NCBI RefSeq assembly: GCF_000016125.1
Contig: NC_009135.1
Span: 1 to 64,000, forward strand
Length of the DNA: 64,000 bases
DNA from: Methanococcus maripaludis C5
Lineage (GTDB): Archaea > AGJL01 > Methanococci > Methanococcales > Methanococcaceae
Direction of reading: 5' to 3'
A program made the translations under genes and the position numbers. Positions 9 to 11,039 of this stretch are shown piece after piece (position 1 is the first letter of the stretch; every line of letters begins with the position of its first letter). A model generated the notes under the pieces. It worked only from the letters and a program-made list of their open reading frames with translations. It had not been told where the DNA came from and searched no databases.

Positions 9-743
9 ATGTTTAGTTTAAAAATGAGAGCTTCAAGAAATGGAAATCATGTTTCGGGTGCAGAACGGTTAGTTAATGAAGAAAAAATTGAAAAAATTTC
101 TTCAGAGCTGATAAAACGTGCAATGAGTCATGAAAATGGAGTTCCAGATTTCATAAATTTAAAGATAGAAAAAGTTACTGAAAAAATAAATAAGTTAAAG
201 CATCTCGAAATAAAAACAGTTCATTCAACTTCAAAAGAGAATTCCAGAAATATTGCAAGGAATCTTTTGAAAAATGAACTGGAAAAATATTATTTAAAGA
301 ATGGAAAAGATATTGAAAAAATCGATGAATTGATTGATTTTGCATTTAAAATAATTGATGCAGGAAATATGCGTGGAGCCGCAATTTTAGATTTGGATGG
401 AAATCGACTTGAAAATATTTTAGAACGAGGAATTCGCGTAAAAAATATTGATACAACAGAAGAATTATCTGAAAAAATTTTAAAAGATAGTTCGTTAACT
501 GAAAGAACTGTTGATGCAATCGCAATCGCAACAAAAGTTGTAAACTGCGGTGTAATTTCAGAACTTTGCACGTCTGACAACTTTTCATATACGACTGGTT
601 ATGTTGCAACTAAAGACGGATACTTTAGAATTTTAAATCTTAAGGATAAAGGGCAGGTGGGTGGACGAGTATTTTTTGTTGAAAATTCAAAAATCGATGA
701 ATTATATGATAAGCTTGAAAACATGCCGGTTACTGTTTACTAG
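9..743 (+). CDS. bioW: 6-carboxyhexanoate--CoA ligase (pimeloyl-CoA synthetase)
   Basis: Activates pimelate with ATP and CoA to pimeloyl-CoA, the acyl substrate of BioF in biotin synthesis; cytosolic. The 244-aa product starts [12 protein letters not shown] and goes on to SGAERLV, the N-terminal signature of BioW proteins, and its length fits the family. The ATG at 9 is preferred over the Met at residue 6 because family members carry residues before the MRAS motif; the ribosome binding site would lie at or beyond the left edge and cannot be judged. bioF follows 8 bp downstream, so the two are co-transcribed. Identification rests on motif recognition, not a search. Confidence 0.93.
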
Positions 744-751
744 GTGTCTTT

Positions 752-1864
752 ATGTTTAGAGAAAACTTAAAAAATGAGATTGATTCAATAAAAAATCAAA
801 AACTCTATAGAAAATTAAAAGGGGAAAAAGGTATTGAATTAAACTTCTCTACAAACGATTATTTGGGACTTTCGAAAAATAATGACGTAATTAACGATTA
901 TAACGAAGGTTTGAAATACGGTGCAGGGGCAACAGGTTCAAGACTAACATCTGGAAACTTAAACCACGAGAAACTCGAAGAAACAATTTCTGAATTTAAA
1001 GGAACTGAAAAGTCACTGGTTTATTCTTCGGGTTATAGTGCAAACTTGGGGGTCATAAGTGCGCTCTGCAAAAAAGGAGATTTAATATTAAGCGATGAAT
1101 TAAACCACGCATCAATAGTCGATGGAATAAGGCTTTCAGGAGCCGACAAAAAAATTTATTCTCACAATAATACTTTCAATTTAATTGAAATTCTGGAAGA
1201 AAACAAAAATTACGAGAATAAATTTATTGTAACCGATGCAGTATTCAGTATGGGTGGAGATATTGCACCAGTAGATGAATTAAAAAAAATAGCAGACGAA
1301 TATAACGCAGTTTTGATATTGGATGATGCACACGGAACCGGTGTTTTGGGAAATGGGAAAGGAACACTTCAACATTTTAAAATAAAACCAAATGACAATA
1401 TTATTCAAATTGGAACCCTTTCAAAGGCGATCGGAACTGTTGGGGGATTTGTAACAGGTATTGAAGAATTAAGTGATTATTTAATAAATACTTCAAGAAG
1501 TTTTATTTATTCAACAGCACTTCCTCCAGCAGTAATCTCTGCAAGTATTAAATCTTTTAAATTGATAAAATCTGGCGAATTAACTGATAAACTATCTAAA
1601 AATATTGATATTGCAAACAAAATCTTTAAATCAGCAGGATTTATCGAGGAAGAACAGATTACTCCGATATATCCATTTTTATTCGGGGAAAAATCGATAA
1701 AAATTTCAGAAGAACTTTTAAATTATAAGATATTTTGTGTCGGAATTCGCTATCCAACTGTCAAAAAAGGTTCCGAGCGAATAAGAGTAAGCATAACTGC
1801 AGAAAATAAAAAGGAAGATTTTGAATATCTATGCGAAAGCATTTCAAAAATAAACAATGGGTGA
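752..1864 (+). CDS. bioF: 8-amino-7-oxononanoate synthase
   Basis: PLP-dependent alpha-oxoamine synthase that condenses pimeloyl-CoA with L-alanine to give 8-amino-7-oxononanoate, the second biotin step here. At 370 aa it is slightly short for the family. Visible motifs are NDYLGL (about 35-40), GAGATGSR (57-64), the PLP-ring aspartate and histidine in DDAHGTG (191-197), and the Schiff-base lysine in GTLSKA (Lys225). The start follows an AGGTG ribosome binding site. The last codons overlap the ribosome binding site of bioD, so the genes are translationally tight. Confidence 0.95.
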   Translation: MFRENLKNEIDSIKNQKLYRKLKGEKGIELNFSTNDYLGLSKNNDVINDYNEGLKYGAGATGSRLTSGNLNHEKLEETISEFKGTEKSLVYSSGYSANLGVISALCKKGDLILSDELNHASIVDGIRLSGADKKIYSHNNTFNLIEILEENKNYENKFIVTDAVFSMGGDIAPVDELKKIADEYNAVLILDDAHGTGVLGNGKGTLQHFKIKPNDNIIQIGTLSKAIGTVGGFVTGIEELSDYLINTSRSFIYSTALPPAVISASIKSFKLIKSGELTDKLSKNIDIANKIFKSAGFIEEEQITPIYPFLFGEKSIKISEELLNYKIFCVGIRYPTVKKGSERIRVSITAENKKEDFEYLCESISKINNG

Positions 1865-1869
1865 TTTAA

Positions 1870-2499
<630 letters not shown>

Positions 2500-2896: not shown

Positions 2897-3832
2897 TTGG
2901 ATAGTATTTTAATTGCAGAGGCATTTTCCAGTTCTTTTTTTTATACCGTAAGGATTTCTGCAGTAGTACTTTTAACAATTTATATTGTGAATTATTTTGT
3001 AAATAATGGACTTTTAGAAAAAATTTCAAGTTATACATATCCCATAACGCAAAAACTTAATTTAAACAGTTTTTTAGTTTCTTCAATACTGGTTTCATTT
3101 TTCAGTCCGACTGTGGGGTATACAATGCTTGCAGATGGAATTGCTGAAAAAGAATTAACTGAAACAGAAGTTTTGGCCGGAACATTAGCAAATTCATTTC
3201 CTGCGGTACTATCACACGTTTTAACGTACTATATTCCTGTGGTTATACCAATTTTAGGATATACTGGAATAATTTATGTAATTTTAAGACTTTCAATTGC
3301 ATTTACAAAAAGTATTTTGGGACTCTTTGTTCTTTTGATGATTTCAAGAAAAAGTGAAAAGAAAATACAAACTCAAATTAATAATAAAAATAATAAAAAG
3401 AGTCCCTTTGAAAAAACATTTAAATTTGCAAGAAGATTTGTTCCAGTAATGTTTGTTTCGATGTTTTTGGTTTTGTATCTGTCAAAAACAGGATTTTTTA
3501 ATATATTTTCCACAATTGTAATGCCTGTAACGAATATTTTTAATTTAAATCCAAATACTGGAATTTTAGCAATAACTGAGATAATAAATGTCTCAGCTGC
3601 AATGGTAATGGCAGGAACGTTCTTAAACGAAGGTTCACTAAGTGCAAATGAGGTTTTAATTGGACTCATATTTGGAAATATTGTGGCTTTTTCTACGAGG
3701 TCAGTAAAACATTCAATTCCACTTCATTTTTCACTATTCGGTTCGAAAAGAGGTACCAAAATAATACTTTTAAATTCGAGTGTTACAATAATCTTAGACA
3801 TTCTGATAATCGGACTTTTAATTATGTTTTAG
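2897..3832 (+). CDS. Gate-domain (nucleoside-recognition-like) membrane protein
   Basis: Integral membrane protein of about 311 aa with roughly eight hydrophobic segments. Its pattern (SFFSPTVGYTMLADG near the first third and a matching SAAMVMAGTFLNEG in the second half) fits the archaeal family of Gate/nucleoside recognition proteins; the substrate is unknown. The frame is open further upstream, but TTG at 2897 directly follows a perfect GGTGAT ribosome binding site (2888-2893), so this start is preferred over ATG at 2837. A charged loop containing KNNKK separates the two halves. The tatD-like gene follows 8 bp later, which suggests one transcript. Confidence 0.75.
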   Translation: MDSILIAEAFSSSFFYTVRISAVVLLTIYIVNYFVNNGLLEKISSYTYPITQKLNLNSFLVSSILVSFFSPTVGYTMLADGIAEKELTETEVLAGTLANSFPAVLSHVLTYYIPVVIPILGYTGIIYVILRLSIAFTKSILGLFVLLMISRKSEKKIQTQINNKNNKKSPFEKTFKFARRFVPVMFVSMFLVLYLSKTGFFNIFSTIVMPVTNIFNLNPNTGILAITEIINVSAAMVMAGTFLNEGSLSANEVLIGLIFGNIVAFSTRSVKHSIPLHFSLFGSKRGTKIILLNSSVTIILDILIIGLLIMF

Positions 3833-3840
3833 GTGTTTTC

Positions 3841-4596
3841 ATGAATTTAGATGATTTTAAGTATATCGATTCCCACTGCCACGTTGAAGATAAGTCACTC
3901 AATAAATTTCGTGAAGATATTGTAAAAAGGGCGTTTGACGAAAAAGTGCAGATGGTAACGAGCGGTACGAATTTAGGTGGCTGCAGAAGAGCAGTTGAAT
4001 TAAAAGATAAATATGGAATTTACATAACTCTTGGTTATCACCCGGGAAGAGTAAATGCCGAAGATAACGCAATTGATAAAGTTTATAGATTTATTCAATC
4101 AAAAGAAAAGGATATTTTGGCAGTTGGGGAAATCGGGCTTGATTTTGATGCAGGAAATACTGAAAGACAGGAAAGTATATTTAAAAAGTTTATAAAACTC
4201 GCAGAAGAATTAAATAAACCTGTAGTAATTCATGCAAGGGGTATGGAAGAGCGTTCCTACGAAATTTTAAGAAATGATTCAGTTTCAATGTACCACTGTT
4301 ACAGCGGTTCACTGGAACTTGCAAAAGGGCTGATCGAAAACGGCAATTTTATTTCATATTCTACATTAGTATGCTTTTCAGATCATCATAAAAATCTTGT
4401 TAAAAATCTCAGTCTTGAAAATATTGTGGTGGAAACAGATAGTCCTTATATTTCACCGATAAAAGGTGAAAAAAATGAACCAAGAAATGTAATAAAGGTC
4501 ATTGAAACGATATGGGAATTAAAAAAGGACGAATATTCCTTAGACGAAATCACTAAAATTATATACAATAACACAAAGAGGTTATACCATATCTGA
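3841..4596 (+). CDS. TatD-family metal-dependent hydrolase
   Basis: Predicted amidohydrolase-fold phosphoesterase/DNase of the TatD family, cytosolic, 251 aa. The metal-binding motif DSHCH is at residues 10-14, GEIGLDF at about 97-103, a VIHARG strand in the middle, and the C-terminal ETDSPYISP at about 200. The order and spacing match TatD enzymes, and length is typical. The start has an AGGTG ribosome binding site. It lies between the Gate-domain protein and two small genes on the same strand, with gaps of 8 to 10 bp, which indicates an operon. The natural substrate in methanogens is not known. Confidence 0.88.
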   Translation: MNLDDFKYIDSHCHVEDKSLNKFREDIVKRAFDEKVQMVTSGTNLGGCRRAVELKDKYGIYITLGYHPGRVNAEDNAIDKVYRFIQSKEKDILAVGEIGLDFDAGNTERQESIFKKFIKLAEELNKPVVIHARGMEERSYEILRNDSVSMYHCYSGSLELAKGLIENGNFISYSTLVCFSDHHKNLVKNLSLENIVVETDSPYISPIKGEKNEPRNVIKVIETIWELKKDEYSLDEITKIIYNNTKRLYHI

Positions 4597-4606
4597 GGGT
4601 GATATA

Positions 4607-4915
4607 ATGGTAAAATTCACTGCAAAATTGATATCGATTATAACTGTGGAAGAAGCACTGAATTCAGAAGTTTCGGGAACTGTTCGGGTCAGGGCTTCTC
4701 ACGATAATAGGGAACTTGATCCCAATCAAAATGTGGCAATACTTAATATTGAAGGAACTACCAGCTACCAGGCTTACTTTGTAGATCCTGATACAGATAT
4801 TGAAAAAATAAAGGCAGACCTAGAAAAATACGGTGCAGTATTGAACCACAATTCAGAAGAAATAATTAAAAAATATGTCGAGAGGATGAATGATGAAGGA
4901 TGCCAAGGGGATTGA
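4607..4915 (+). CDS. Conserved archaeal small protein, possibly DUF749 family
   Basis: A 102-aa soluble protein without cysteine pairs or membrane segments. The sequence alternates beta-prone stretches (FTAKLISIITVEEA, VAILNIEG, YQAYFVDPD) with a C-terminal helix. I suspect the archaeal DUF749 family from memory of length and context, but this is not secure. The start has a textbook GGTGAT ribosome binding site. The next gene begins 26 bp before this one ends, so the two are translationally coupled and probably act together. Confidence 0.7.
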   Translation: MVKFTAKLISIITVEEALNSEVSGTVRVRASHDNRELDPNQNVAILNIEGTTSYQAYFVDPDTDIEKIKADLEKYGAVLNHNSEEIIKKYVERMNDEGCQGD

Positions 4916-5426
4916 TAAACAGTGGGTAATATTAAATGAACTGGCATCAAAAGTTTCTAAAATTCGGCCACTTCCTGAAGACGTTTATTCAAAACTCCGG
5001 ATTGCAAATAATATAATTACTTACTATTTACTTGACGAACACGCAGATTTTGAAGTTTTAAGAGACGCTGAAAAGGAAATATCGAAAATACAGGTGATCT
5101 TGTTTGGATTAGCTGACCCTGATACTTCAAAAGAATATTTGATCAAAATGGGTCAGGCATTAAGGAATGAGATTGATCTTGAATTTCCATTGAAACAGAC
5201 TTCATTTAATACCGAAGTTAAAAGAAAGAAAGATTCTGAAACAATAAGAATAAATATGCCTGTAGAAGTTCATATTGAAGTTCTTGGGGAACTTAGCGAG
5301 CATAACGGAGTAATATTTGAATTAAGTCAGGAAGACGAGAAAAAAGTTCTTATCGAAGGCGTAAAAGAAAAAATAACTACTACATTGAAAGATTTTTCTG
5401 TAATATGGAAATTTACGGATAATTAA
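4890..5426 (+). CDS. Conserved archaeal protein, possibly DUF2096 family
   Basis: A 178-aa soluble protein of unknown function. The first half is helical (KQWVILNELASKVSKI), the second half has beta strands around INMPVEVHIEVLGE. Overlap of 26 bp with the preceding gene implies coupling; AGAGG at 4881-4885 precedes the ATG. A DUF2096 assignment is my guess from recall of an archaeal family of this size and needs a profile search. The gene ends in TAA followed by a T-rich tract, the usual kind of methanococcal transcript end, and faces the mtr operon end-on. Confidence 0.68.
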   Translation: MMKDAKGIDKQWVILNELASKVSKIRPLPEDVYSKLRIANNIITYYLLDEHADFEVLRDAEKEISKIQVILFGLADPDTSKEYLIKMGQALRNEIDLEFPLKQTSFNTEVKRKKDSETIRINMPVEVHIEVLGELSEHNGVIFELSQEDEKKVLIEGVKEKITTTLKDFSVIWKFTDN

Positions 5427-5471
5427 CTTTTTTATTTTTTTATAAACTATAATTTGTAAATTTAAATTTTA

Positions 5472-5523
5472 GAATATTATTTTACAAAAATAAAAAGAGA
5501 ACAAATTAATTAAATTAATTTGT
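5472..5523 (-). terminator. mtr operon 3' end: inverted repeat plus U-tract
   Basis: An 11-bp perfect inverted repeat (ACAAATTAATT at 5501-5511 and AATTAATTTGT at 5513-5523) overlaps the mtrH stop codon. On the minus strand it is followed by CTCTTTTTATTTTTG and then TAAAATAATATTC, itself a weak hairpin with a T-run. This is the expected end of the mtr transcript. The T-run motif recurs at other transcript ends in the window. Confidence 0.6.
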
Positions 5524-6469
5524 TTAATGGGTGTTCTGCAACAGTTGCAGTTCCCATTTCTTTTGCGGTTTCTGCGATGATCATATCGGTCATTGCAACT
5601 GCAGGGAATGCGAGTTCAGCATTGTCGATTGGACCGTATAAAACGTAGTCACCTGAAGCCATTGTTTGTACAATGTTTGCACCAATGTCACATACGTGGT
5701 GTACGTCTTTTGAGATCTGATCTTTGCCTTCTTCTCTTAATCCTTTTCTGAATTCTCTAAGCCAGTCCCATGCGGAAGGTACGTTGTGAATACCACTTCC
5801 TACGGGTAAACCGAGTTTTGCTTTAACAGCGAATGATGCTCTAACAGCGTGACCTGCACCGTTACCCATTGGGGTTACTGCAACGTCGATGAGTGGGTAT
5901 TTAATACCTGCTTTTTCTGCAAGTTCTAACATACCGATGTCTTTTGTTTTACCACCATCGTTTAATACGTTCAATTTACCTCCAACGGATGGATCCATTG
6001 GGTCGAAACATAAAACGATTGAAGCTTCAACATCACTGTTTGTTAAGTTTTCAATTTCTTCATCTTCTGCAGCAACGTTAATTGAGTTGTAAACACACTG
6101 TTTTGCGTATCCTGCTTCTGTAGCTCTGTTTGCAGCGGCCATTCTTGCTTTACCGGATGTTGAATCGAGTAACATTGGACCGTCCCATACTTCGGAAACG
6201 AAATCAATGTAGTTAACTAAAGCTTCTTCTGTACCGCCGAAAACTTGCACGAATGCTGAGTTTCCTGTAATGTCTTGCATTTCAGCTTGTTTGTTAATTA
6301 AAGCTTCAGCAGCTTTTTTATCGAAGATACCTTTTTTAGCATCTTCTACAATTTTGTGTCTTGCGTAGAAAATTGTACCGGATAATGCGGTAGGGTATTC
6401 TCCTGGTTGTCCACCGAATTTTGCACCAGCGAACTCAATGACCATTTGTTCTTTGTCAAATCTAAACAT
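5510..6469 (-). CDS. mtrH: Tetrahydromethanopterin S-methyltransferase subunit H
   Basis: Peripheral subunit that transfers the methyl group from methyl-tetrahydromethanopterin to the corrinoid of MtrA, on the cytoplasmic face of the Na+-pumping Mtr complex. 319 aa, a TIM-barrel methyltransferase (starts MFRFDKEQ; PGEYPTALSG near the N-terminus; LLDSTSGKARMAA about 110; GNGAGHAVRAS about 195), all typical of MtrH. AGGTGGA ribosome binding site before the ATG. It is the last gene of mtrEDCBAFGH, 24 bp after mtrG, and its stop codon lies inside the operon-terminal inverted repeat. Confidence 0.97.
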   Translation of the reverse strand: MFRFDKEQMVIEFAGAKFGGQPGEYPTALSGTIFYARHKIVEDAKKGIFDKKAAEALINKQAEMQDITGNSAFVQVFGGTEEALVNYIDFVSEVWDGPMLLDSTSGKARMAAANRATEAGYAKQCVYNSINVAAEDEEIENLTNSDVEASIVLCFDPMDPSVGGKLNVLNDGGKTKDIGMLELAEKAGIKYPLIDVAVTPMGNGAGHAVRASFAVKAKLGLPVGSGIHNVPSAWDWLREFRKGLREEGKDQISKDVHHVCDIGANIVQTMASGDYVLYGPIDNAELAFPAVAMTDMIIAETAKEMGTATVAEHPLNKLI

Positions 6470-6493: not shown

Positions 6494-6718
6494 TTATTTT
6501 ATTAAGTCAAATAATGGTAAAACGGTTCCTAGAACATATACGAATATAAATCCTATTGCGAGTCCGTATGCAATACCTACGTCTCTTCCTGCCTTTTTAC
6601 CGGTTCTCTGGATTATTTCAGCGTTGGTATTTTCAACTGTATTTTCGATTTCATCGAGTTTTGCTTGAAGTTTTTTGTAGTCTTTTGTTGGTGTGACTAC
6701 TGTTGGAATTTCAGACAT
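6494..6718 (-). CDS. mtrG: Tetrahydromethanopterin S-methyltransferase subunit G
   Basis: Small membrane-anchored subunit of Mtr. 74 aa: an N-terminal soluble helix (MSEIPTVVTPTKDYKKL) and one C-terminal transmembrane helix (YGLAIGFIFVYVLGTVLPL, about 50-68), as in other MtrG proteins. GGGTGA ribosome binding site. It lies between the MtrA-MtrF fusion (4-bp gap) and mtrH, the conserved operon position. Confidence 0.95.
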   Translation of the reverse strand: MSEIPTVVTPTKDYKKLQAKLDEIENTVENTNAEIIQRTGKKAGRDVGIAYGLAIGFIFVYVLGTVLPLFDLIK

Positions 6719-6722
6719 TTAC

Positions 6723-6935
6723 TCACCCCATTAAGAATTTTAAAGCTATTGGGACTGCAATTAATGCGATAGCAAATACTGAACCGTACATTAATCCTGT
6801 GACAGTTTCAGTCTGAACACCGGAAGCTAATCCGAGGTCTCTTGTCATCAATCCTACTTTGTAATCCAATGCTTCGTTTAATGATTTTATTGATTCAATG
6901 TCTGGCTCTGCTACAGTAGGGATACCTTCAATCAT
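6723..6935 (-). CDS. Possible free MtrF from an internal start
   Basis: Within the fusion gene, GGAGG at 6940-6944 followed by four bases and ATG at 6935-6933 would give a 70-aa protein ([11 protein letters not shown] to KFLMG), the normal size of MtrF in other methanogens. The ribosome binding site and start begin only a few bases after the duplicated mtrA segment ends at 6948, so this looks like the original start of mtrF, still intact inside the fusion. Whether it is used is not visible from sequence. Confidence 0.5.
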
Positions 6936-7484
6936 GAGGCCTCCTTCTTCGTCACCAGCAGCAGCTGCGCCACCTTCTAATTCAATGACCATTGGATCTT
7001 CTTCAAATGCTCCAGGGTCTTTTGAAATACAGTTTTTGATTGCGTCTGCAATTTTACCCTTGTCTTCAACATCAATTAAATCAATGCATTCAACAACTTG
7101 GGTTTGGAGTCTTCCAACTGGTTCTTTTCCTACGTTTTCCATGAATGGAATAGCTCCTTTAGCTCCGATGATACCACCATCGTCACCAATTCCGTTTTCG
7201 TATAATGCTTTGATACATTGTCCAGTAATGTGTCCTTGAACTTCTGATCCAGCAATTACCATAAATCTGATGTTTGGGTTTGAAATGTAGTTTGCAACAA
7301 CTTTTTCAATTCCTAAGTTTTCTGTGTGGCATGGCCCTGAGATAGCTGCACCAGCGTCAATTGCAGCCTGGTCCAAACCGTGGGAACCGAGTGTAATTAC
7401 TGCAACACAGCTTTCAGGGTTACCCACTACATATTCACCGTTAGCAACAGGCCATCCTGCTGCTGGGGCTTTTTTATCTGCCAT
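6723..7484 (-). CDS. mtrF: MtrA-MtrF fusion: second corrinoid domain joined to subunit F
   Basis: At the mtrF position of the operon there is a 253-aa gene. Residues 1-178 are identical to the soluble corrinoid-binding domain of the adjacent mtrA, including His85 in EVQGHITGQ, the predicted cobalt ligand by analogy with MtrA His84. It then switches to MtrF (about 184-253: soluble helix, RDLGLASGV, one C-terminal transmembrane helix ending PIALKFLMG). The MtrA membrane anchor is absent and is functionally replaced by the one from MtrF. ATG at 7484 is preferred over GTG at 7493, because GGAGGTG sits six bases before it. A normal-size MtrF may also be made from an internal start at 6935. Mtr would then carry two corrinoid domains per unit, or two MtrA-type proteins; this is inference. 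Confidence 0.93.
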
Positions 7485-7498
7485 TGTTTGCACCTCCT
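6948..7498. repeat. Direct repeat copy 1 (5' part of mtrA inside the fusion gene)
   Basis: By eye identical to 7684-8234 (offset 736 bp) except for one base in the leader (7488 T versus 8224 C). It covers codons 1-178 of mtrA plus the ribosome binding site. Identity extends through all third codon positions, which means very recent duplication or continuing gene conversion. Confidence 0.93.
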
Positions 7499-7500
7499 CC

Positions 7501-8220
7501 TTAGAGTAATGAGAATACCAATATTGAAAGGAACAAGCCTATTGCAATACCTTGGATTTTTCCGTTGTAGTATCCTGAATTAAATTTAGCAATCATTGCA
7601 GCTTCATTCATTTTTTCGGAGACGATTCTCATTCTAGCTTCTAACAATGCCATTTCTGGTGAGGTAGGTTTTATTGAAGTTGATTCGTCACCAGCAGCAG
7701 CTGCGCCACCTTCTAATTCAATGACCATTGGATCTTCTTCAAATGCTCCAGGGTCTTTTGAAATACAGTTTTTGATTGCGTCTGCAATTTTACCCTTGTC
7801 TTCAACATCAATTAAATCAATGCATTCAACAACTTGGGTTTGGAGTCTTCCAACTGGTTCTTTTCCTACGTTTTCCATGAATGGAATAGCTCCTTTAGCT
7901 CCGATGATACCACCATCGTCACCAATTCCGTTTTCGTATAATGCTTTGATACATTGTCCAGTAATGTGTCCTTGAACTTCTGATCCAGCAATTACCATAA
8001 ATCTGATGTTTGGGTTTGAAATGTAGTTTGCAACAACTTTTTCAATTCCTAAGTTTTCTGTGTGGCATGGCCCTGAGATAGCTGCACCAGCGTCAATTGC
8101 AGCCTGGTCCAAACCGTGGGAACCGAGTGTAATTACTGCAACACAGCTTTCAGGGTTACCCACTACATATTCACCGTTAGCAACAGGCCATCCTGCTGCT
8201 GGGGCTTTTTTATCTGCCAT
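7501..8220 (-). CDS. mtrA: Tetrahydromethanopterin S-methyltransferase subunit A
   Basis: Corrinoid-carrying subunit: 5-hydroxybenzimidazolyl cobamide shuttles the methyl group from MtrH to coenzyme M. 239 aa, the family length. The soluble cobamide domain (1-178, start [12 protein letters not shown], His85 in EVQGHITGQ as probable axial ligand) is followed by a linker ([12 protein letters not shown]) and one C-terminal transmembrane helix ([16 protein letters not shown]). ATG at 8220 is chosen over GTG at 8229 because AGGAGGTG lies just upstream. The next gene, the MtrA-MtrF fusion, starts 16 bp on and repeats the first 178 codons exactly. Confidence 0.97.
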
Positions 8221-8578: not shown

Positions 8579-9367
8579 TTACTCTTTCTTAGGCAATTCT
8601 GGTACATATTTAACTTCGCAAGCATCAGCAAGTGATGTTTTTACGAATGTTCCGTAAGCGATGAACCAGAAGATTGCAGCTACTGCTGTTGAAACTATGT
8701 CTAATTTTGCAATTGCGAATACCAACCATGCCATAAATCCACATGCAACTGCAAGAGTCATTGTTCTCTTGTGGCTCTCATCTGGACCGATACATGCGTT
8801 GAATGGGTGCAAAATTGCCATACCTGCTGCAATAAATGCCAATGCAATAACTCCGTTGTTAATTGCACCGTTAATAATTATATCTGCTGAAAATCCGCCT
8901 GCGAATGCAGTACAGAATCCTAAAATTGCTAAAGCACCCATTAATGAGAGTTTAGTCATACTTGAAACAATAATTGGTACTTTCATTCCTACTGGGTTTT
9001 GTGTTAACTTACCCACGATGAATCCAACAACTACTGCGATTACTGCAGCAAGGATTGGTGTAACAAGTACTGGGAGTCCAAATGCTGAAGGTATCAAAAC
9101 ACCTGCTAATGCGGAAATTGTACCCATACCTAAACTTACCATTCCAATTGATGGAACACCTGTACCTAAACCGTATGCGGCTACTCTTCTTGTAGTGTTA
9201 GCACCTGCAACACAAGCGCCCGCAGCTAATAACCCACCAAGGAGCATAGCTAATGACGGGAAAAAGTGTGCGATGTATATTCCAACGAGTGATAATACAG
9301 CGCCGAATGCTAAAACCTGATCTTCAGGGAATAGTTCTGCTGCGTGTCCTCCGCCACCATGTGACAT
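8579..9367 (-). CDS. mtrC: Tetrahydromethanopterin S-methyltransferase subunit C
   Basis: Integral membrane subunit of the Na+-translocating part of Mtr. 262 aa with about seven or eight hydrophobic helices rich in Gly and Ala, a His-containing N-terminus ([14 protein letters not shown]) and the conserved polar segment [15 protein letters not shown] about three quarters along. GAGGTG ribosome binding site. A long antisense open frame opposite this gene is a composition artefact. Confidence 0.96.
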
Positions 9368-9405: not shown

Positions 9406-10113
9406 TTAAAGTCCCATAGCCATTCCAATTAATACTGCACCTGCGATTAATGAAGAAACAAATGAAGCAATAACTCCGTTTGGCATTTTCTTAAATTTAG
9501 GGTCGTGGAATCCTTCGATTGTACCACCAATGTTGTATGAAGCTAAAACCGCGTTCATAAAGAAGAAACCTACTGCCAAAACACCTGCAATAGCTGCGGC
9601 AAATCCTAACTGTTGGAGTGCGATGTATGCAAGAGCACCACCGAGACCACCGAGTGCTGCACCAATTGTACCACTTACGAAACAAACGGTTGGAATACCG
9701 TGTCCTGTTGTACCTGGTGTGATGTATGGTTTTTGAATATCTCCGGTAATAGGGTCTTTTTCACATTTATCTGCTGCAGGGACGATACCAATACCGTATA
9801 CATAGATAATTTGACCGATTAACATTGTAAGGCCTAACATGATCATTGCACCGACAGCACCAGATAACATGATCAATAACATGTGAACTGGATTAGCCAA
9901 TGAAACTCCCGCTTGTGAAGCCATTGTAGCTGCAGCCAAGAGACCGGTAAAACCTGCACCTGCTGCTAACTGTGTTGTACCTGTACCTACCCCTGTTGAA
10001 GTAGCCATCGCTGCTGGAGCACCACCTACTGGAACGAAGTGAACGCTTGCGTTGATAATCGCTCCCGCAATGGTTATTTCCGCAAGAGGTAATATAAAGC
10101 TTGTAGCATCCAT
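9406..10113 (-). CDS. mtrD: Tetrahydromethanopterin S-methyltransferase subunit D
   Basis: Membrane subunit of 235 aa with about six transmembrane helices; the cytoplasmic loop [20 protein letters not shown] followed by [15 protein letters not shown] is characteristic of MtrD. With MtrC and MtrE it forms the Na+ channel of the complex. Ribosome binding site GGTGAT before the ATG. It is the second gene of the operon, 26 bp after mtrE. Confidence 0.96.
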
Positions 10114-10139: not shown

Positions 10140-11039
10140 TTAATTTCTGTATGGTCCGTATTTGTTTCTAGCATATACCTCGAGTTTCCTGTTGATACCT
10201 GCTGCAACGGCCACTACTAAGAGACCTACTAAAAGTGCGATTGATGTTTTTGTTACTAAGTCTCCACCGATGATGTTACCGAGAATGCTTCTCCATCCAT
10301 CGAGGAAGATAATTAAACCAAAGCATAATCCTGTAAGTGGACCACCAAATCTTGAACAGAAATATGAAGAATCTAAACCATTTCTCACACCGTATTCTGC
10401 GTAAATATCGATGTCACCTTGGTTAGCAACAGGGATACCTCCACCGAATGGGTATTTTTGGTATTCTCTTTCAGCACCGTAGTGAACGTCACCAGTTGAT
10501 GAACCGATAGCACCTACAGTAATACCGAAGATTAATGCAACCAATGGTAGTGGGAATGGGTTTCCTAATGCTGTTGTTGCTAAGTATGCAGCAAGAGTCA
10601 TTGTGAAAACAGCTATAAATCCGTGTCCTACGATTGGACCTATGTGTGATGTAAGAACATCCATGTAAACAGGTTGTCCGAACTTTTTGGACTGACCTAC
10701 AGTTCTTCCAAGGAATGCACTAACTGAGTATGCACCGTGTACGACTGCAGCAACACCTGAACCTACGATTATCGCTAAAACAGCGTTTAATCCTGCGTTA
10801 ATTAGTGCCCAAGCAATGGTACCTGCAACTGCAACATACAAACCGTATGATACAGGTTCCCCAGATATAGCTTTGTTAAAGTATCTGTGGATATTGCCCA
10901 TTTGCGGACCTAATTGAACCTGAGAGTTAGGGTTTGACTGTGAACCGACATCGGATTCCAAGTCTTCAGCACAACCTGAAACAGTTGCAGCCGCCCCAGC
11001 TAGGGCCAATGCCCCCAGAGAAATCAATGTTGGATCCAT
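10140..11039 (-). CDS. mtrE: Tetrahydromethanopterin S-methyltransferase subunit E
   Basis: First gene of the mtr operon; 299 aa, about six transmembrane helices with the conserved loop [20 protein letters not shown] in the middle. MtrE, C and D carry the Na+ translocation that makes the reaction energy-conserving. The start follows GAGGTGAAATA. A promoter with a TATATATA box lies about 110 bp upstream. Confidence 0.97.

Follow-up and report, generated by a model that had tools for sequence, protein, structure and literature searches.

Fusion of MtrF to a second corrinoid domain

In the DNA analysed here, a 64,000-nucleotide stretch of the Methanococcus maripaludis C5 genome (the window), the gene of the corrinoid protein MtrA is followed by a second gene in which the same corrinoid domain is joined to MtrF. 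The question raised by this locus is whether the Mtr complex works with two corrinoid domains, or whether the fusion competes with MtrA or takes its place. The operon runs on the minus strand in the order mtrEDCBA-(A-F)-GH and comprises the following features:

5510..6469 (-), mtrH, 319 aa (open reading frame; named from gene order and sequence)
6494..6718 (-), mtrG (PF04210)
6723..7484 (-), mtrA-F fusion (mtrA-2a), 253 aa: corrinoid domain, linker and MtrF (open reading frame; PF04208 and PF09472)
6741..6926 (-), MtrF domain of the fusion (PF09472, E = 5.2e-22)
6933..6945 (-), AGGAGG-CCTC-ATG in the fusion junction, a possible but weak internal start for free MtrF
6948..7484 (-), repeat copy 2, 537 nt identical to 7684-8220
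7008..7022 (-), KDPGA codons of mtrA-F (from the sequence)
7230..7232 (-), His85 codon in mtrA-F
7501..8220 (-), mtrA (mtrA-1), 239 aa: corrinoid domain, linker and stalk/transmembrane helix (open reading frame; PF04208)
7684..8220 (-), repeat copy 1, 537 nt identical to 6948-7484
7744..7758 (-), KDPGA codons of mtrA, recognised by Connectase, whose cut falls between D and P (site defined in PMC10154401)
7966..7968 (-), His85 codon in mtrA, the lower axial cobalt ligand (ligand role from PMC4915002 and PMC12774963)
8242..8568 (-), mtrB (PF05440)
8579..9367 (-), mtrC (open reading frame; named from operon order)
9406..10113 (-), mtrD (open reading frame; named from operon order)
10140..11039 (-), mtrE (open reading frame; named from operon order)

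Counted from their ATG codons (8220 and 7484), mtrA and mtrA-F are separated by a gap of 16 bp and are identical over 537 nt, i.e. 179 codons; an earlier note on this DNA had rightly placed the identity at the start of the genes but gave 178 residues, one too few. The ribosome-binding stretch GGAGGTGCA is common to both. Beyond the repeat mtrA continues as the MtrA tail and the fusion as the MtrF tail. Pfam recognised the MtrA domain alone in mtrA, and in the fusion an MtrA domain at residues 4-173 (E = 1.7e-79) together with an MtrF domain at residues 187-248 (E = 2.7e-21). PF04208 gave an E of about 1e-79 in both genes and PF09472 was matched over its full model in the fusion (positions 1-62 of 62). 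The presence of an MtrA-MtrF fusion beside mtrA is thus confirmed by open reading frames, Pfam and the same gene order in other genomes. His85, said in the note to be retained, is indeed found in both copies, as are Glu55 and the GAIPF loop (at 110), and the expectation of a cobamide-binding fusion anchored through its MtrF helix is supported. An AlphaFold model of the fusion, built from a 12-row alignment, had a mean pLDDT of 39.7 and was set aside.

A profile search of the whole genome (1.79 Mb in 2 contigs, 99.85% complete) revealed exactly two MtrA domains, those of mtrA and mtrA-F, and no separate mtrF; the only MtrF domain is the fused one. A plasmid search with the fusion as query gave no match. 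Near the left end of the window (9-2499, plus strand) we observed candidate biotin synthesis genes, bioW-, bioF- and bioD-like, which were named by eye.

A known arrangement maintained by gene conversion

The arrangement in the window is not new. It was named mtrA-1/mtrA-2a in Methanococcales by Wang et al. 2015 (PMC4632066), and the earlier note was right in stating that MtrA-MtrF fusions have been mentioned for Methanococcus. Our fusion is the same gene as their mtrA-2a: it lies directly downstream of mtrA-1 and before mtrG, its own transmembrane helix is replaced by MtrF, and its corrinoid domain is homogenised. Those authors found the copies within a species to be 99.7% identical on average and concluded that gene conversion has been at work for a long time, and a later survey counted mtrA among concertedly evolving genes (PMC6053082). 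Both the tree and the difference counts reproduce their conclusion. In a tree of the corrinoid region, built on the codons up to the Connectase cut, the two copies were sisters in every two-copy genome. The copies of the window's genome (G000) differ at none of 468 nt, while the nearest species pair differs at 22-23 of the same 468 nt, which excludes chance. It is ongoing gene conversion, not a recent origin, that explains the identity of the copies. In a close relative, G016 (L005, 765-1484), there are differences between the MtrA domains at 36 of 178 residues and 50 of 468 nt, and here gene conversion has stopped. The fused copy of G016 keeps the ligand residues and KDPGA; its mtrA-1 has QDPDA instead.

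Second corrinoid domains are also found elsewhere. In mtrA-2b (mtrA-G) of the Methanomicrobiales and in mtrA-F of Methanocella arvoryzae such a domain, similar to that of mtrA-1, likewise sits on a single-helix stalk subunit, but these fusions are of independent origin according to PMC4632066, and in the Methanomicrobiales the partner is MtrG. Cytoplasmic MtrA homologues, e.g. that of Methanothermus fervidus (PMC4915002), also represent an extra corrinoid domain in one genome; unlike the fusion in the window they are soluble and lack the membrane helix.

Three states of the mtr operon in Methanococcales

An alignment of mtr operons across Methanococcus species had been proposed in the note. 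We searched 36 Methanococcales genomes and could read 30 mtr operons, 10 with separate mtrA and mtrF and 20 with the fusion, which fell into three states. In the first, mtrA and mtrF are separate (L022-L031; an eleventh example is G013 in L098). In the second, that of the window, mtrA is followed by mtrA-F. Both copies were seen in 11 genomes, and to these we add G001 and G034, in which only a fusion adjoining mtrB was seen; these lone fusions are probably collapsed or rearranged repeats. In the single-contig assembly of G001 (L089, reverse-complement 3597-6401) a second mtrC fragment and mtrB occupy the place where mtrA-1 would be expected, and we regard this duplicated mtrC-mtrB piece at the repeat as a misassembly or rearrangement. 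The third state, found in seven genomes (L015-L021) including the single-contig assembly G028, combines mtrA-F with an mtrA that lacks the corrinoid domain and is called headless below. Two state-3 loci carry names, L032 being that of Methanothermococcus sp. SCGC AD-155-C09 and L033 that of Methanothermococcus isolate SZUA-1385.

On an RpoB tree state 3 requires one change, and the fusion three gains or losses. In PMC4632066 mtrA-2a was present in all complete Methanococcales genomes used there and always accompanied by a full mtrA-1. In contrast, 10 of our 30 operons lack the fusion and seven combine it with a headless mtrA. The fusion is patchier in Methanococcales than published.

Two kinds of mtr operon could also be told apart. 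One (L023-L026, L030, L031) has an MtrB that starts like MATYVFID and an SNKPN-type MtrF, the other (the remaining loci) an MEIVKICPE-type MtrB and an IEGIPTV-type MtrF. The two kinds cross genera, which suggests that whole operons may have been exchanged.

The perfect 537-nt repeat might raise the suspicion of a sequencing or assembly artefact, or of a recent tandem duplication. Such repeats can collapse or multiply, and G001 and G034 look affected. However, the same gene order with both copies and distinct tails is present in 10 other genomes and has been published for several species. On account of this conserved two-gene arrangement an assembly artefact was rejected, and we give the whole explanation practically no credence.

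Relatives in which the fusion carries the only corrinoid domain

The headless MtrA proteins comprise 106-127 aa: a variable leader, the block [ED]NPGA[IFL]DE[ED]PMILDLEGG, a linker and a normal stalk/transmembrane helix. Their genes lie at oriented positions of about 1100-1490 in L015-L021. A profile search found exactly one MtrA corrinoid domain per state-3 genome, that of the fusion, in 7/7 genomes. We found no description of this state in a literature search of open-licence papers. His85, Glu55 and the GAIPF loop region are kept in the fused domain of all 20 fusions examined, and where the fused domain is the sole copy its pN/pS is 0.06 (pN/pS values given here are simple Nei-Gojobori averages over related sequences).

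Mtr is required for growth of hydrogenotrophic methanogens. Because it is essential and no other corrinoid domain is encoded in these genomes, the fused domain must be catalytically competent in state 3, which argues that it serves as a working methyl carrier in these relatives. The suggestion that the fusion substitutes for MtrA applies to the seven related genomes, but not to the genome of the window, whose mtrA has its own corrinoid domain.

Two corrinoid domains per protomer?

The conclusion from state 3 is also the main reason to believe that the fusion in the window is a functional carrier, although sole use of the fused domain in relatives would not prove simultaneous use of both domains here. 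On balance we think it likely that MtrA-F belongs permanently to the Mtr complex and is a second working cobamide carrier alongside MtrA, giving two tethered corrinoid domains per protomer. The C-terminal helix of MtrA-F would fill the place of MtrF in the stalk, and its N-terminal domain would act as the second cobamide methyl carrier, so that a trimer would possess six corrinoid domains instead of three. One domain would hang from the MtrA helix and the other from the adjacent MtrF helix; both would pick up methyl groups at MtrH and deliver them to coenzyme M at MtrCDE, and gene conversion would hold the two domains identical. This proposal is built on what can be read from the sequences, i.e. 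the identity of the copies, the ligand residues, the lack of another mtrF, the conservation across genomes and the sole-copy relatives; it predicts that both proteins are expressed, loaded with cobamide and used at the same time in the stoichiometry given above.

The solved structures offer a place for such a subunit. In the complexes of Methanothermobacter marburgensis (8Q3V) and Methanosarcina mazei (9QTQ) the central stalk contains one helix each of MtrA, MtrB, MtrF and MtrG per protomer, and at its cytoplasmic top the N-terminal segments of these subunits come together (PMC10998594, PMC12774963). A flexible linker lets the corrinoid domain swing, and the M. marburgensis structure did not resolve this domain. 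MtrA and MtrF of these species match the domains of the window's proteins, with a similar His ligand, linker and helix order, but their MtrF lacks a corrinoid domain, leaving one such domain per protomer. Since the N-terminal segments of MtrA and MtrF are adjacent at the top of the stalk, a domain on MtrF would sit almost where MtrA hangs its own. The linkers from PGA to the stalk segment are about equally long (31-33 aa in the fusion, 26-27 aa in MtrA). Moreover, MtrF is encoded only by the fusion gene and thus every protomer with MtrF should also hold a fused corrinoid domain. Competition of the fusion with MtrA, which had been considered in the note, is unlikely: the genome contains no further mtrF, and each protomer of the solved complexes requires one MtrA and one MtrF helix.

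A second carrier could be beneficial in several ways. One domain might load at MtrH while the other unloads at MtrCDE, a spare carrier would be available if one cobamide became oxidised, or access might be gained to a second MtrH active site. The membrane-distal MtrH active site of M. mazei is thought to be hard for MtrA to reach (PMC12774963). The open-licence literature yielded neither proteomics of a Methanococcus Mtr complex nor its cobalt content or structure, and no direct evidence for the fusion protein came from ribosome-profiling or proteomics papers. Passages in proteomics reports on M. maripaludis and M. voltae name MtrA and not MtrA-F, which would be hidden by the shared peptides.

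It might be thought that only one kind of carrier exists, with free MtrF arising through internal initiation in the fusion gene or through proteolysis and the fused domain being left as a by-product. An AGGAGG fits this idea: it precedes by 4 nt an in-frame ATG that coincides with the MtrF border. However, the internal ATG is present only in G000 and its two close relatives G015 and G017, and in the remaining state-2 fusions this position is taken by Val, Ala, Ser or Glu; nor do the seven sole-copy relatives possess an ATG at the MtrF border. An internal start was therefore rejected as a general mechanism, and the strong constraint on the fused corrinoid domain also speaks against a by-product. 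We regard this explanation as improbable, and as very improbable the view that the fused domain has no role in methyl transfer and is kept as a conversion donor, as a spare or for dosage. Gene conversion by itself is enough to preserve a passenger domain (the mechanism is described in PMC4632066), but a passenger would hardly be the only corrinoid domain in seven genomes, or keep its ligand residues and KDPGA in G016, where conversion has stopped and KDPGA was lost from mtrA-1.

Connectase and a possible exchange of corrinoid domains

Connectase, a ligase of methanogens, cleaves MtrA at KD|PGA and is able to attach the KD end to a different PGA end; its site consists of KDPGA and about 10 residues that follow, and it works in other proteins as well (PMC10154401, PMC11961121). 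The genome of the window encodes Connectase (G000:C1:1608472-1609044; PF09894, E = 2.4e-64; MJ0548-type), with a match to PDB 6zvz (E = 2.6e-78), and the full site including the downstream stretch is identical in mtrA and mtrA-F. The published target of Connectase (MJ0548, PF09894) is MtrA; an exchange between MtrA and MtrA-F is our own suggestion. We tentatively propose that the enzyme moves the corrinoid-KD part between MtrA and MtrF tails, which would be compatible with two carriers. A need for interchangeable parts would help to explain the identity of the copies, and the activity of Connectase on its site in any protein context (PMC10154401, PMC11961121) is in keeping with such a reaction. 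In the seven relatives the domain would be made on MtrF and then transferred to the headless MtrA stalk, or shared between the two.

The headless proteins are informative in this respect. Although the linked domain is gone, their NPGAxDE[ED]PMILDLEGG block has a pN/pS of 0.04 (pS 0.74) with 14 of 16 columns invariant, and is about as conserved as the membrane helix, whereas the 12 codons before it are nearly free (pN/pS 0.59). Candidate acceptor sequences of headless-mtrA species are the peptides PGAIDEEPMILDLEGG and LENPGAIDEEPMILDLEGG. State-3 fusions keep KDPGA but without the downstream pattern (they have TEEDAEEIDL), and a split into donor and acceptor would suit both this and the site pattern of G016.

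Several observations argue against exchange. In headless MtrA the PGA is preceded by EN or DN instead of KD; freeing an acceptor end would take a putative extra cut, and the EN is a serious obstacle to ligation. In the crystal structure from M. jannaschii the stretch in question, residues 156-170, is turned back onto the corrinoid domain (PMC4915002), and the selection could thus be for docking in trans with no ligation involved. Genomes with a single mtrA likewise contain Connectase together with KDPGA; in other words, the pair is not specific to the fusion. The wider picture is accordingly speculative, and we doubt that it is right in full: the corrinoid domain would be an exchangeable cartridge moved between MtrA and MtrF stalks by Connectase, and in one Methanothermococcus-like clade it would be encoded only on MtrF, with the headless MtrA receiving it after translation or docking it in trans.

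Implications

Mtr is the sodium-pumping step of methanogenesis. What is new here are the relatives that possess only the fused corrinoid domain, which indicate that the domain can work on MtrF. Such a position would constrain models of how the mobile carrier reaches both MtrH and MtrCDE, and a second tethered carrier would be a natural test of reach to the membrane-distal MtrH site. If the link to Connectase holds, this enzyme, known as a protein ligase for laboratory use, would gain a defined role in methanogenesis as a physiological subunit-exchange enzyme, one that could be tested in the genetically tractable Methanococcus maripaludis.
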